A DNA stretch of 36,712 nucleotides, taken from assembly GCA_015488555.1 (NCBI GenBank), contig WFNO01000043.1:1-36712 (forward strand). Reading direction: 5' to 3'. This DNA is from Gammaproteobacteria bacterium. Lineage in GTDB: Bacteria > Pseudomonadota > Gammaproteobacteria > SZUA-140. Made by a program: the position numbers and the translations under genes. The notes under the pieces are model-generated. The model made no database searches, was not told the origin of the DNA, and worked only from the letters and a program-made list of their open reading frames with translations. Positions 16,278 through 30,051 of the stretch are shown one piece after another. Numbering within the stretch: the first letter of the stretch is position 1; each line of letters opens with the position of its first letter.

Positions 16278-17873
16278 TCAGTGGGCCGTGGCCTCGAGGT
16301 CGCTGTTGGCCAGTTCGATCCGGTTGCGTCCCAGCCGCTTGGCCCTGTAAAGGGCCTTGTCAGCCCGTTCGATGAGGCTGCTGGGGGTCTCTCCGGGACG
16401 ATACAGGGCGATGCCCGCCGAGAAGGTGGGCATGGATCGGGTCTCGCCGTCGAAGTGATAGGGAGATTCGGCGTTACGTTTCTGTACCTTCTGCAGGGCG
16501 CGCAAGGCCCCGTGCTGGTCGGTATTGGGCAGGATCACCGCGAATTCCTCGCCACCATAGCGGGCCACCATGTCATGGTGGCGGAATATGCTGAGGATGT
16601 TGTGGGCGAAGTTGCGCAGCACCTCGTCGCCGGCGGCGTGACCGTAGGTGTCGTTGATCTTCTTGAAACCGTCCATGTCCACCAGGGCCAGGGTCAGGGG
16701 GGAGCCGTAACGCTGCACGCGGGCTACCTCGTCCTCCAGGCGGCGCATGAAGGCACGCCGGTTGGGCAGCTCCGTCAATTCGTCGGTGAGGCTCAGGATG
16801 TGGACCCGTGTGAGTTCGTCGTTGAGATACTGGCCCTCGCTCTCGATGATCTGCAGGTAGCGGTTGGCACTCTCCAGTTTGCGAGTCAGCTCCTTATGGC
16901 CCTCCATGAGGCGCGTCACCTCCCGGATCAAGGCTTCTTTGAGATTGCCGATCTCGTCGATGTTATCCATCTGGCGCAGGGATTCGTGCCCCACTTCCAG
17001 GAGGATGCCGAATTTCTCGTTCTGCTTGATGACCTCGCCCAGGTGGGAGGCCAGAGTCTTTTGGATCTCGCGGATGCGCTGGCGTTTGTCCTCCAGTACA
17101 GATCCGGGTTGCGAGGCTGGTATCTCGGCGCTTGCCGCTTGTGTCTCCTCCGCTATCTGTGCAGGTGTGATCGGAGCAAGGGGTTGGGTGGAGGCTGCCG
17201 GCGTGGGTGGGGGGTCGGTGGTGGCAGGAGCTTGTTGCCTGTCTTCTCTGCCGAGTTCGTTGCTGGTTTCTCTTCCAGTGGGAGGTGATTCACCGGCCCT
17301 CATGGCGGAGTGCGGTGAGTGAGCTGCGGTGCGGGATCGGGGCTGAGCCTGAAATGCTGGGACCTTAGAAAGAGTCGCGGGCGTTCTGGCCGGCGTTGGG
17401 CTCTGTTTCGAACCCACCTGTGGGCTGTGGTTGGCTGCTTTTTCCGGGGTCAGGGTGGTCCCAGCCCAAGAAGCGACGTCCTCGATTTCTTCCAGTAGAT
17501 CACTCAGGGCAGCCTCAGGGGCGGCGGATGGCTTTTCACTCAGAGTGGCGAACAGAGAGCGGATCTGGTCGCTCAGGGTGCGTATCTCGTCAGCGCTGGT
17601 GGACAGGGACAAACGCATCTTGATGAGTCTCAGGTGGACAAGCAGGGGGGAGTCCGCGGGCAGCAGGCGGGCGCTTTCCTCTAGCAGTACCTGTACCAGC
17701 ATGCGGTAGGCTTCCTGGGTCTGATGAGTGTGGGCCTCGAAGTCCTCCAGCACGCTTTGCACGTGCTGGTAGATGGCCACTCCCGCACGGCTCCCTTTCA
17801 GGGCCCGGAGCAGGTACAGTGTCTTGGGTGTGATGGACATGGGGTTTAGATTCTGTCCGTGTTTCGATGACAT
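16278..17873 (-). CDS. Soluble diguanylate cyclase (GGDEF domain)
   Basis: Predicted to make c-di-GMP from two GTP in the cytoplasm. The 531-residue protein has no transmembrane helix. An N-terminal helical region (about 1-135) of unknown fold is followed by a Pro/Ala/Thr-rich linker (about 145-255), a helical, probably coiled-coil stretch (260-360), and a C-terminal GGDEF domain with SLTDELTELPNRRAF, active-site GGEEF (440-444) and an RxxD inhibitory site (Arg431-Asp434) five residues before it. The intact motifs suggest an active, feedback-inhibited enzyme. ATG 17873 was chosen because GGAG lies 6 bases before it; a TTG eight codons upstream lacks this. It is transcribed alone and convergent to secF. 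The signal sensed by the N-terminal region is unknown. Confidence 0.92.
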   Translation of the reverse strand: MSSKHGQNLNPMSITPKTLYLLRALKGSRAGVAIYQHVQSVLEDFEAHTHQTQEAYRMLVQVLLEESARLLPADSPLLVHLRLIKMRLSLSTSADEIRTLSDQIRSLFATLSEKPSAAPEAALSDLLEEIEDVASWAGTTLTPEKAANHSPQVGSKQSPTPARTPATLSKVPAFQAQPRSRTAAHSPHSAMRAGESPPTGRETSNELGREDRQQAPATTDPPPTPAASTQPLAPITPAQIAEETQAASAEIPASQPGSVLEDKRQRIREIQKTLASHLGEVIKQNEKFGILLEVGHESLRQMDNIDEIGNLKEALIREVTRLMEGHKELTRKLESANRYLQIIESEGQYLNDELTRVHILSLTDELTELPNRRAFMRRLEDEVARVQRYGSPLTLALVDMDGFKKINDTYGHAAGDEVLRNFAHNILSIFRHHDMVARYGGEEFAVILPNTDQHGALRALQKVQKRNAESPYHFDGETRSMPTFSAGIALYRPGETPSSLIERADKALYRAKRLGRNRIELANSDLEATAH

Positions 17874-26504: not shown

Positions 26505-28523
26505 TCATGGTCCTGTCAGGGATACACTGTGATTCCGCGATTCATCCAGCCAGTATTCCAAGCGCGCAGCACTCAGTGGTCGCCCCAGATGGAATCCCTG
26601 CACCTTGTCGCAATTCAGCTCTTCGAGCTGTTGCAGGATCTCGTCGCTGGCCACACCCTCCGCCACCACCTGTAATCCCATGTTGTGGGCCAGCTCGATG
26701 GTCGACTGCACGATGACGAAATCGTCCTTGTTGCGGGTCATGTCCTGGATGAAAGACTTGTCGATCTTGAGGATGTCCAGCGGCAGTTTCTTGAGCGAGC
26801 TGAGGGAGGAATAGCCGGTACCGAAATCGTCGATGGCCAGGCAGACGCCCAAGGCATTGAAATCCTCTAGTATCTCCCGGGCCCGCTGCGGATCGGCAAT
26901 GATGGCGCTCTCCGTGAGTTCCATGATGAAGCGCCGTGCGGGAATGCGCGAGGACTCGACGATATCCATCAGCCGGCGCGGGTGTTCCCGGTCCTGCAGG
27001 CTGCGCGGTGAGAGGTTCACCGAGATGCGGAAGTCGCGGTCCTGTTCCAGCCAGCGACGGCACTGGCGAATGGCCTCTTCCAGCACCCATACCGTCAGGG
27101 GCTTGATGAGATTGGCCTGCTCGGCCAGCGAGATGAACTCGGCCGGCATCACCAGCCCGCGCTGGGGATGATGCCAGCGCACCAGGATCTCCACGGCGTC
27201 CAGCCGGCGGCTGCGCAGGTCGAATATGGGCTGGTATTCCAGGCGCAGCTCGTGCTGCTCCAGGGCTTGGCGCAGGTCCCACATGAGGGACAGTCGGCTG
27301 ATGCTGTTTTTGTCTTGTTCGGCGTCGTATATGATGTAATCGAGGTGATTCTTCTTGGCCATGTACATGGCGACGTCCGCATGGCGCATGAGCAGGATGT
27401 CGTCGCTGCCATGTTCCGGATAGAGGGCGATGCCGATGCTCATGCCCACTTTATAGGGCTGTTCTTCGAAGAAGAAGGGCTGTTCCATAGCGGCCATGAC
27501 CTTGCGTGCGAAGTCCACGGCGTGGCGGCGGTCGGCGATGCTGGGCAGCAGAATACAGAACTCGTCGCCACCGAAGCGAGCCAGGGTATCTGACTTGCGC
27601 AGGAGGTTCTGGATGCGAGAGGCGACCTGTTGCAGCAGGAGGTCGCCGTAGTGGTGGCCCAGAGTGTCGTTTATGGTCTTGAAACCGTCCAGGTCGATCA
27701 TGAACAGAGCCAGCAGGCGATCCTCACGCTGGGCACTGTAGATGGCCTGGCGCAAGCGATCCTGCAATAGCACCCGATTGGGAAGATGAGTGAGAGCATC
27801 GTGGAGGGACTGGTATTCCAGCTCTTTGTTGTGACGTACCAATTCCTGACGCATGAACTCGAAGTCCTGTTGTAGGCTGGTGATCTCGCGAATGGTAGTG
27901 AGTACTTCCAGGGGGTGGTCATAATCCCCAGAAGCGATGCGGCGGGCACCGGCGCGTAGGCGTTGCAGGGGGCGAGTGATCAAGGAGCCGAAAATGGCGG
28001 AAGCCAATAGGATGGCGACGATGTAAGCGAGCACCAGGTAGGCACATAGCCACAAGGTCTCCCGGATTTGTTCCGCGATCGGCGTCTCGTCGTACCCCAG
28101 GAACAACATGCGCCGTTCGCCCTCTTCCCCGCCAACCAGCAGGGGTACGGAAATGTAATAGATGTCGTCCCCATGCTGGTTGAAGAAGAAATCTTCCTGG
28201 AAGATCTCACCTCCGGCATCGTGTCTCAGATCCTGCTCCGAGGTGGCAATGCGTGCATAGACGTAGCGCCCAGCGAGCATGGCGTCGTCGATCATGTCTT
28301 CCATGAGGTCGGGGTCGCGTGCCTGGGTAAGGGTCTCGGCGAACAGGTGGGCGTCTAGGCGTACCTGATCGAGGAAATTGGCCTGCAGATTCTTCTGTAC
28401 CAGATAGACCACCCCGCCCAGGAGCAGAGGCAAGAGGATCAGATTGATAGCTAGGCCGCCGAGGACGATACGTCCCGTGAGGGTATTGAAGAAGCGGTGC
28501 AGCACCAGAGGAATCCCTCTCAT
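26505..28523 (-). CDS. Membrane GGDEF-EAL protein (c-di-GMP cyclase/phosphodiesterase)
   Basis: This 672-residue inner-membrane protein can in principle make and break c-di-GMP. Two transmembrane helices (about 17-41 and 157-180) flank a periplasmic sensor domain of about 115 residues; a HAMP-like segment (181-235) follows. The GGDEF domain has GGDEF at 318-322 and an RxxD inhibitory site (Arg309-Asp312). The EAL domain has EIL at 445-447 (Glu kept), Asn503, ELTE (535-538), Asp565-Asp566, Lys586, Glu622 and Gln642, so catalytic and metal residues look complete. It is the last gene of a three-gene operon: its ATG overlaps the preceding stop (ATGA, 28520-28523). The partners suggest that a periplasmic protein conveys a signal to the sensor domain. 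Confidence 0.95.
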   Translation of the reverse strand: MRGIPLVLHRFFNTLTGRIVLGGLAINLILLPLLLGGVVYLVQKNLQANFLDQVRLDAHLFAETLTQARDPDLMEDMIDDAMLAGRYVYARIATSEQDLRHDAGGEIFQEDFFFNQHGDDIYYISVPLLVGGEEGERRMLFLGYDETPIAEQIRETLWLCAYLVLAYIVAILLASAIFGSLITRPLQRLRAGARRIASGDYDHPLEVLTTIREITSLQQDFEFMRQELVRHNKELEYQSLHDALTHLPNRVLLQDRLRQAIYSAQREDRLLALFMIDLDGFKTINDTLGHHYGDLLLQQVASRIQNLLRKSDTLARFGGDEFCILLPSIADRRHAVDFARKVMAAMEQPFFFEEQPYKVGMSIGIALYPEHGSDDILLMRHADVAMYMAKKNHLDYIIYDAEQDKNSISRLSLMWDLRQALEQHELRLEYQPIFDLRSRRLDAVEILVRWHHPQRGLVMPAEFISLAEQANLIKPLTVWVLEEAIRQCRRWLEQDRDFRISVNLSPRSLQDREHPRRLMDIVESSRIPARRFIMELTESAIIADPQRAREILEDFNALGVCLAIDDFGTGYSSLSSLKKLPLDILKIDKSFIQDMTRNKDDFVIVQSTIELAHNMGLQVVAEGVASDEILQQLEELNCDKVQGFHLGRPLSAARLEYWLDESRNHSVSLTGP

Positions 28524-28990
28524 CGCACATTTCCCTGCCAGAGTTCCATAAGGGTCATGAGTCTAGGGTATTGCCTAGCTTCGTGTTGCCACATATAGGT
28601 GATACTGCCCGGATGTCTCTGCAGGGTCTCGATGAGATGGAGCAGGGAATGGAAACGTTCCGGTCGTCTGCCACCTTGGCGGAATACCCGGGAGAGTAGC
28701 AGGCGGTCGTAGGAGCGTGCGGACATGAGCATGATTTTCTGCAGGAACACTTCGTGGGCCAGGGGATCGCTCAGATTGATGAGGGGAATGAGGCGCATGC
28801 CGGTATTATGATAGATCGGCCTGCTCAGATACAGGCGGCTAATGTCCTTGCGGCTGAGTTGCAGGCCCTCCAGCTCCGGCGTGGCGGTGACCAGGAGCAG
28901 GCGTTGGATCTCGGCCTGCGCGCCGTTGCTGCCGAGCACGAGCAACAGGGCCAGCACCAGCCGAATCGTCCGTGCAGGGAAGGACTTCAT
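28520..28990 (-). CDS. Small periplasmic PBP-like (phosphate-binding-protein-like) protein
   Basis: The 156-residue product has a clear signal peptide (MKSFPARTIRLVLALLLVLG, cleavage predicted after AQA at residue 26). The mature part (SRKDISRLYLSRPIYHNTG, IPLINLSDPLAHEVFLQKIM, RSYDRLLLSRVFRQG, LIETLQRHPGSITYMW) follows the pattern of truncated PstS/PBP-like domains often found beside GGDEF proteins and sensor kinases. ATG 28990 overlaps the barrel gene's stop (ATGA, 28987-28990), and its own stop overlaps the GGDEF-EAL start. It probably binds a ligand or an envelope partner and modulates the membrane c-di-GMP enzyme. The ligand cannot be told from sequence. Confidence 0.85.
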   Translation of the reverse strand: MKSFPARTIRLVLALLLVLGSNGAQAEIQRLLLVTATPELEGLQLSRKDISRLYLSRPIYHNTGMRLIPLINLSDPLAHEVFLQKIMLMSARSYDRLLLSRVFRQGGRRPERFHSLLHLIETLQRHPGSITYMWQHEARQYPRLMTLMELWQGNVR

Positions 28991-30051
28991 GGGATCACGG
29001 CACTCCACTGGATGTGGATCTGATCGCTGGATTGTTCTAGGTAACGGGCATGAGAGACCTCCAACTTGAGAGCCTGGTGCTCCTTGAAATCGAAGCGCAA
29101 TCCGCCCAGCTGACGGGCCCGCACGTAGGCAGGCAGAGCATCGAGATAGGCGACGTCCTGGTCTCCGTAGTTGTCCTCCACGCGCAGGAACAGGGTCCAG
29201 CGATCTGCGAACGAATTTTCCAGTTGCAGATAAGCACTGGAGAAGCGCTTGCCAGGGAGTCCTGGCCGGCCTGGGTCGGTGGTGATCTGGAACAGTGCTC
29301 CCAGGAGCCGCACGTGGCGCTGCCACAAGAGGCCCTCCCAGTTGCCATAGAGGCCGGCGATGGTTTGTTCTACATTCTCCAGGGCGCGGCTGAAGAGAGT
29401 GCCTCGGGCGAAGAAGATGCCGTATTGCTCAAGGCCATCTTCCAGAGGCTGATAACTGAGGCGCAGAGTGGCGGCAGATTCGTGGTCGTTCTGGAGGTCA
29501 GAGAGATCCTGGGCATGCAGGGCTTCTCCCCGCAGTTGCGGCGCCAGGCCCACTGCCAGGTCGAGGCCGTAACGCTGCTCTTCCTTCCTGAGGCCGCTTT
29601 GCCAAAGCAGGCCCACCAGATGCATGGGCAGGACACCACCGTCGTGTTCGTAGGCCGCGATACCGGGGCGGGTGATGCTGGTCTCCAGATAGTTGCCATG
29701 GTGGTACTGGGTGTTCCAGTAGCCCAGGGGATTGTGGAAGCGTCCCACCCAGGCCACGCCGTTTTCCCGCAGCTGCCAGCCCAACTGCAGGCGTTCGAAA
29801 TGGGTACCGCGATCTTCAGCGCTACTCACGAAGAACTCGCCTAGCACGCGCAGGCGAGTGAATTCCCGTGCATAGAAAAAGTCCACTGTGGGCGTGGTGC
29901 GATTCTCCGGCAGGTCATGTTCGGCCCCCAGAGCGATTTCTTGGTCACGGTATACGGAGTTGATATTGGGAAAAACGATGAATTCCCCCTGCGTGAGTGC
30001 GGGTGCCTGATGAGACAGGATCAGCGTACACCCTATCAACAGCCCGGCCAT
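28987..30051 (-). CDS. Predicted outer-membrane beta-barrel protein of unknown function
   Basis: The product is about 354 residues from ATG 30051. It begins with a hydrophobic leader (MAGLLIGCTLILSHQAPALT) and then alternates short amphipathic strands rich in aromatic residues (RLQLGWQLRENGVAWVGRF, RWTLFLRVEDNYGDQ, LGGLRFDFKEHQALKLEVSH), the pattern of an outer-membrane barrel. A conserved-looking HNPLGYWNTQYHHGNYLETSI stretch occurs early. The frame is open upstream to 30246 (another ATG at 30216), so the true start may be earlier; the shorter form lacks basic residues before the leader. It is first in an operon with the PBP-like and GGDEF-EAL genes, which suggests a role in an envelope sensing module. 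Confidence 0.8.
   Translation of the reverse strand: MAGLLIGCTLILSHQAPALTQGEFIVFPNINSVYRDQEIALGAEHDLPENRTTPTVDFFYAREFTRLRVLGEFFVSSAEDRGTHFERLQLGWQLRENGVAWVGRFHNPLGYWNTQYHHGNYLETSITRPGIAAYEHDGGVLPMHLVGLLWQSGLRKEEQRYGLDLAVGLAPQLRGEALHAQDLSDLQNDHESAATLRLSYQPLEDGLEQYGIFFARGTLFSRALENVEQTIAGLYGNWEGLLWQRHVRLLGALFQITTDPGRPGLPGKRFSSAYLQLENSFADRWTLFLRVEDNYGDQDVAYLDALPAYVRARQLGGLRFDFKEHQALKLEVSHARYLEQSSDQIHIQWSAVIP

Follow-up and report, generated by a model that had tools for sequence, protein, structure and literature searches.

A candidate trans-envelope sensory module: a porin-like barrel, a half periplasmic binding protein and a GGDEF-EAL enzyme co-inherited in gammaproteobacteria

For most enzymes that turn over cyclic di-GMP (c-di-GMP), we know of no input to the periplasmic domain. 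An operon on contig WFNO01000043.1 of a gammaproteobacterial assembly (GCA_015488555.1; GTDB lineage SZUA-140) raises the question of whether such an input can be recognized from the genes that travel with the enzyme. In the window (the whole stretch of 36,712 nucleotides that was analysed), three genes on the minus strand (30051..26505) run in the order outer-membrane barrel (P0003), half periplasmic binding protein (half-PBP; P0002) and inner-membrane enzyme with GGDEF and EAL domains (P0001). The initial annotation had tied the three genes together by two ATGA overlaps, and had proposed a relay across the envelope in which the barrel or a solute controls c-di-GMP turnover; the genes, their order, their strand and both overlaps were all confirmed. 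The comparisons below support well, from genomics, the view that the operon encodes a trans-envelope sensory module.

We searched barrel and half-PBP profiles over 369 genomes of the class. In 18/18 strong barrel loci (>280 bits) the half-PBP gene is directly downstream of the barrel gene, usually with a 4-base overlap. Of 16 relatives examined, nearly all have this overlap at the same position, a recurrence that exceeds chance. In the 23 strong half-PBP loci (22 at >110 bits and one split into two pieces), the next gene encodes a protein that shares its periplasmic sensor domain with P0001; the frame is broken in the sensor gene of locus L033 and in the half-PBP gene of L135. Tree distances among the barrel, half-PBP and sensor are correlated (Mantel r 0.71-0.74, 26 trios), as is expected from joint inheritance and which alone is no proof of contact. 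Separate inheritance of the barrel, the outcome that the initial annotation had named as fatal to its proposal, did not occur.

The sensor domain is constant while what follows it changes. One domain is common to GGDEF-EAL, PAS-GGDEF-EAL, GGDEF-alone (L038), PAS-GGDEF (L118) and histidine-kinase proteins, the last followed by a response regulator gene at L040 and L115; a kinase-receiver locus (L033) also carries it. Residues F50, D111 and E146 are invariant across the GGDEF-EAL, GGDEF and histidine-kinase outputs (alignment A5). Retention of the domain while the outputs vary marks it as the input module.

In P0001, hydropathy places the transmembrane (TM) helices at residues ~17-41 and 156-178, with ~113 residues between them, close to the periplasmic domain of about 115 residues described initially. 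The only Pfam matches at E ≤ 1 are to HAMP, GGDEF and EAL. The GGDEF part reads RKSD-TLARF-GGDEF, giving an inhibitory site (I-site) and an active site, and the EAL part has the signature residues EIL, VNLS, ELTE, DDFGTGY, LKID, AEGV and QGFHLGRP; the complete GGDEF, RxxD and EAL-type residues reported earlier are thus all present, with EIL in place of EAL. Judged by these intact motifs, the enzyme could both make and break c-di-GMP. NCBIfam matches fell well short of the equivalog cut-offs in every case (DibA, 447 of 980 bits), and P0001 therefore fits no equivalog name.

The second protein had been called PBP-like, and this holds for its fold, with the correction that only a single lobe is present. 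The AlphaFold2 model (pLDDT 94.0) superposes with VIA-align on the PstS structures 1twy and 4exl (Z 11.8, root-mean-square deviation [rmsd] 2.5-2.7, 110-116 residues aligned); on 1twy, residues 27-154 match residues 101-238 (rmsd 2.5, 112 aligned). The mature part covers one lobe, PstS lobe I being absent, and in the alignment the half-PBP has NxSDP where PstS has its phosphate-binding GSGT loop, i.e. the SGT loop is replaced. P0002 had no Pfam match at E ≤ 1, nor did its close relatives match Pfam, and searches of PDB sequences with P0002 and with a profile of the trio half-PBPs alone returned nothing relevant. Among 54 members of the wider half-PBP family, 7 match PBP_like_2, and the profile of this wider family matches PstS structures at 8.6e-7. 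Since by sequence only the wider family reaches PstS, the assignment rests on these intermediates and on the model. As modelled, P0002 is PBP-like but is no classical two-lobe solute clamp.

The outer-membrane barrel, which had been proposed without tools, was predicted as a 16-strand porin fold by AlphaFold2 with 42 homologues (pLDDT 92.9, pTM 0.88), so that the initial concern that no barrel would be found did not materialize. Foldseek returned general porins as matches to the model. With VIA-align, OprP ranked top (2o4v; Z 26.4, rmsd 4.0, 299 aligned) and OprO second (4rjw; Z 26.1, rmsd 5.1, 310 aligned), while other porins reached Z values of 23-24; on this confident model, P0003 appears closest in structure to these phosphate porins. 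P0003 had no Pfam match at E ≤ 1, PDB sequence searches with P0003 and with a wide barrel profile gave nothing relevant, and Porin_O_P weakly matched 3/42 relatives (best 1.8e-5). Strands 5 and 6 are joined by a long loop, the L3 constriction loop of porins, which is here the barrel's most conserved stretch (2.78 bits per column versus 1.9 elsewhere, 42 homologues). Outside the class, barrel matches were rare and weak. The start codon of P0003 is uncertain: with the ATG at 30051, the signal peptide lacks a basic n-region, and the frame is open to 30246. At the other end (region of 28990), barrels of the trio subfamily mostly finish in QWSAVFP, an aromatic residue followed by proline; outer-membrane proteins usually have an aromatic residue at the very C-terminal end.

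Beyond the trios, distant half-PBPs adjoin genes for outer-membrane barrels of other kinds and for chemoreceptors, kinases or cyclases. Methyl-accepting chemotaxis protein (MCP) genes are beside the half-PBP at L145 and near a barrel/half-PBP pair at L123, L046 and L050, while distant half-PBPs are found beside a GGDEF gene at L148 and a kinase gene at L136. Half-PBPs accompany barrels of several families even where there is no neighbouring sensor. Using a crude rule for a barrel (a profile match, or an open reading frame [ORF] of 280-620 residues ending in F, W or Y), an immediate barrel neighbour was scored in 52/61 half-PBP loci; 11% of other ORFs of the same size end in F, W or Y. As part of the 61-locus set came from barrel searches, the less biased figure is ~14/20 for L131-L150, which were found by half-PBP alone and chosen for having no barrel-profile match. 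In L122, L124, L126 and L127, the half-PBP forms the C-terminus of a protein of 560-750 residues encoded beside a barrel gene and comprising a cytoplasmic part (with a DnaJ domain in L124 and L127), one TM helix, a long low-complexity linker and the half-PBP. The length of this linker suggests a need for the lobe to extend as far as the outer membrane.

Other arrangements were also seen. The genome of the trio has a second half-PBP (~127 bits) beside a different, 369-residue barrel at a contig end (G000:C9, L161:5983-7583, plus strand), and in L046 a half-PBP/barrel pair of this kind comes first, then a chemoreceptor and then another half-PBP/barrel pair. Repeat proteins ending in GGCRIC (L128:6890-8797, with Sel1 repeats, and L129:2540-4936) precede distant barrels and take the place of the half-PBP.

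How might the three proteins work together? The reading we favour, to which we give slightly less than an even chance, is a three-compartment sensory module for c-di-GMP with the half-PBP as the adaptor between porin and enzyme. The OprP/OprO-fold porin would sit in the outer membrane, and the half-PBP, a PstS lobe lacking the phosphate loop, would act in the periplasm, docking both on the porin and on the enzyme's periplasmic domain. Changes in the porin (in what it binds, how it is assembled, or what flows through its conserved L3 constriction) would alter docking of the half-PBP on the enzyme, which in turn would shift the balance between synthesis and degradation of c-di-GMP. We infer both contacts, the signal and the direction of the change in c-di-GMP. 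A single lobe with a replaced SGT loop is more in keeping with an adaptor than with a solute clamp. Of the relay first proposed, the sensory unit stands, given the adjacency, the correlated trees and the kept input with swapped outputs, while solute control through a classical clamp now seems unlikely and control by the barrel has to be set against loci that lack it. Two observations weigh against the adaptor reading. The barrel is absent in 5/23 strong half-PBP loci (L131-L135), although at L134 a different porin-like gene stands instead; the half-PBP and sensor are kept there, and that pair can therefore exist without this barrel. Furthermore, by alignment, conserved half-PBP residues lie at the ligand-binding position of PstS, so the protein could still bind a small molecule, e.g. 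as a dimer.

These same observations lend weight to the main rival, a solute receptor like NspS-MbaA, a known binding-protein-coupled c-di-GMP receptor (PMC8967002). Here the porin would only admit the solute, the half-PBP, maybe as a dimer, would bind it and the periplasmic domain of the enzyme would read the bound form, with no porin contact needed. An OprP/OprO-like fold with an L3 that looks selective, paired with a PstS-like lobe, would suit such a role. Nonetheless, the single lobe without the SGT loop, the half-PBPs held on an anchored long linker beside a barrel, and their persistence with several barrel families even without an adjacent sensor all point away from it, and we consider it unlikely, if the strongest of the competing explanations. 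That the porin and half-PBP are instead a nutrient-uptake pair, the enzyme being merely co-transcribed and binding its own ligand through its periplasmic domain, is more doubtful still. Relatives of both proteins are transport parts and the sensor domain could bind a ligand alone, but no ABC permease or ATPase genes were recognized within or overlapping the trio, and the strong half-PBPs carry the same sensor periplasmic domain whatever the output, which exceeds what shared transcription explains. Least probable of all, in our estimate, is an envelope-stress relay in the manner of YfiBNR, a tripartite c-di-GMP system that spans the same three compartments of outer membrane, periplasm and inner membrane (PMC4655355, PMC3375315); the half-PBP would repress the enzyme until sequestered by the porin of a stressed or misassembled outer membrane, with no solute sensed. 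A highly conserved pore constriction would be unexpected in a mere sequestering scaffold, and Pfam did not place either partner of the enzyme in the YfiB or YfiR families.

A regulator of the Rrf2 type, NsrR-like by eye, is encoded a short way upstream of the barrel-less pairs of half-PBP and GGDEF-EAL enzyme at L131, L132 and L135, and this hints at a nitric oxide connection.

Compared with described systems, the trio works like a cross between YfiBNR and NspS-MbaA, lacks defining features of each, and belongs to neither. With YfiBNR (TpbB) and HmsCDE it shares an operon with one protein per compartment and, in that operon, an inner-membrane HAMP-GGDEF enzyme with a periplasmic domain, controlled in those systems from the periplasm. 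However, YfiB is an OmpA/Pal-like lipoprotein and YfiR a family of its own, whereas the Pfam-negative P0003 and P0002 have the folds of a 16-strand porin and a PstS lobe, and the trio enzyme also has an intact EAL domain; membership was rejected on these grounds. With NspS-MbaA it shares a PBP-family protein encoded beside an inner-membrane GGDEF-EAL enzyme that has two TM helices and a periplasmic domain. NspS, a polyamine-type binding protein with two lobes, is not known to have a porin partner, whereas the trio has one PstS-type lobe and a porin, so it was not placed in this class either. ScrB-ScrC is another binding-protein-coupled GGDEF-EAL receptor. LapD has the same TM-periplasmic domain-TM-HAMP-GGDEF-EAL layout, but P0001 has no match to the LapD/MoxY periplasmic domain (Pfam, E ≤ 1) and both of its catalytic sites are intact, while those of LapD are degenerate; here too membership was rejected. 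Although OprP and OprO (phosphate and pyrophosphate porins) are the best structural matches, P0003 is only 12-14% identical to them, has its own invariant L3 motif and is encoded in a signalling operon. Similarly, the half-PBP shares the lobe II fold of PstS (Pfam PBP_like_2), but its operon has no ABC transporter genes.

A literature search of partial coverage found no prior description of a porin/half-PBP/c-di-GMP module, and the trio, co-inherited in many gammaproteobacteria, looks like a type of envelope-spanning sensor not described before. The trio genomes name candidate inputs for the enzyme: a specific porin and a specific half-PBP that remain linked in different families even as the output changes. 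The porin/half-PBP input stands a real chance of being a general class in its own right. In its fullest form, a widespread class of envelope sensors in which a dedicated half-PBP adaptor reads an outer-membrane porin and the pair is plugged into interchangeable inner-membrane outputs (c-di-GMP enzymes, histidine kinases, chemoreceptors and J-domain membrane proteins), the idea is tentative and we rate it as rather unlikely. Were it true, whatever passes or binds one pore would directly control cell behaviour, and if the contact is real, bacteria would be using a general porin fold to sense at their outer membrane. The module would also suggest what role might be played by short proteins encoded beside porins and matching PBP_like_2 (PstS-type) in part. 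As there are only three genes, a simple genetic test is possible.

Features of the trio and of the half-PBP fusion proteins
Feature	Position	Strand	Basis or remark
Barrel P0003, 354 aa, 16-strand, porin-like	28987..30051	-	AlphaFold2, VIA-align; start uncertain
Constriction loop L3, residues 107-143, strands 5-6	29623..29733	-	motif HNPLGYWNTQYHHG...RPG...DGG.LP; topology from AlphaFold2 model
Overlap, barrel stop TGA/half-PBP start ATG	28987..28990	-	ATGA; CCATGA or close variants kept in relatives
Secreted half-PBP P0002, ~156 aa with signal peptide, PstS-type lobe II	28520..28990	-	AlphaFold2, VIA-align
Overlap, half-PBP stop TGA/enzyme start ATG	28520..28523	-	ATGA
Inner-membrane sensor enzyme P0001, 672 aa, TM-periplasmic-TM-HAMP-GGDEF-EAL	26505..28523	-	Pfam, motifs, hydropathy
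Periplasmic sensor domain, ~residues 42-155	28059..28400	-	motif EDFFFxxHxDxxYYIxxP...LGYDE
HAMP domain, residues 179-229	27837..27989	-	PF00672, E 1.2e-11
GGDEF domain, residues 240-393	27345..27806	-	RKSD inhibitory site and GGDEF active site
EAL domain (EIL variant), residues 416-649	26577..27278	-	catalytic residues complete
Half-PBP fusion proteins	L122:7563-9818, L124:6117-7808, L126:6240-8264, L127:2241-3947		each adjoining a barrel gene

Judged by eye from translations, the genes upstream of the trio resemble those for a class I glutamine amidotransferase, folE2, queD and dxs, and those downstream are convergent and resemble pgpA, thiL and nusB. Comparable neighbours surround the trio in L037, L039, L111, L112 and L114, all of other families, which indicates that the position is old and that inheritance there has been largely vertical. 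Elsewhere in the window, a second GGDEF domain (16320-16790, minus strand) is inside an open frame of 549 residues, and the genome as a whole has 19 GGDEF matches in 2.35 Mb.

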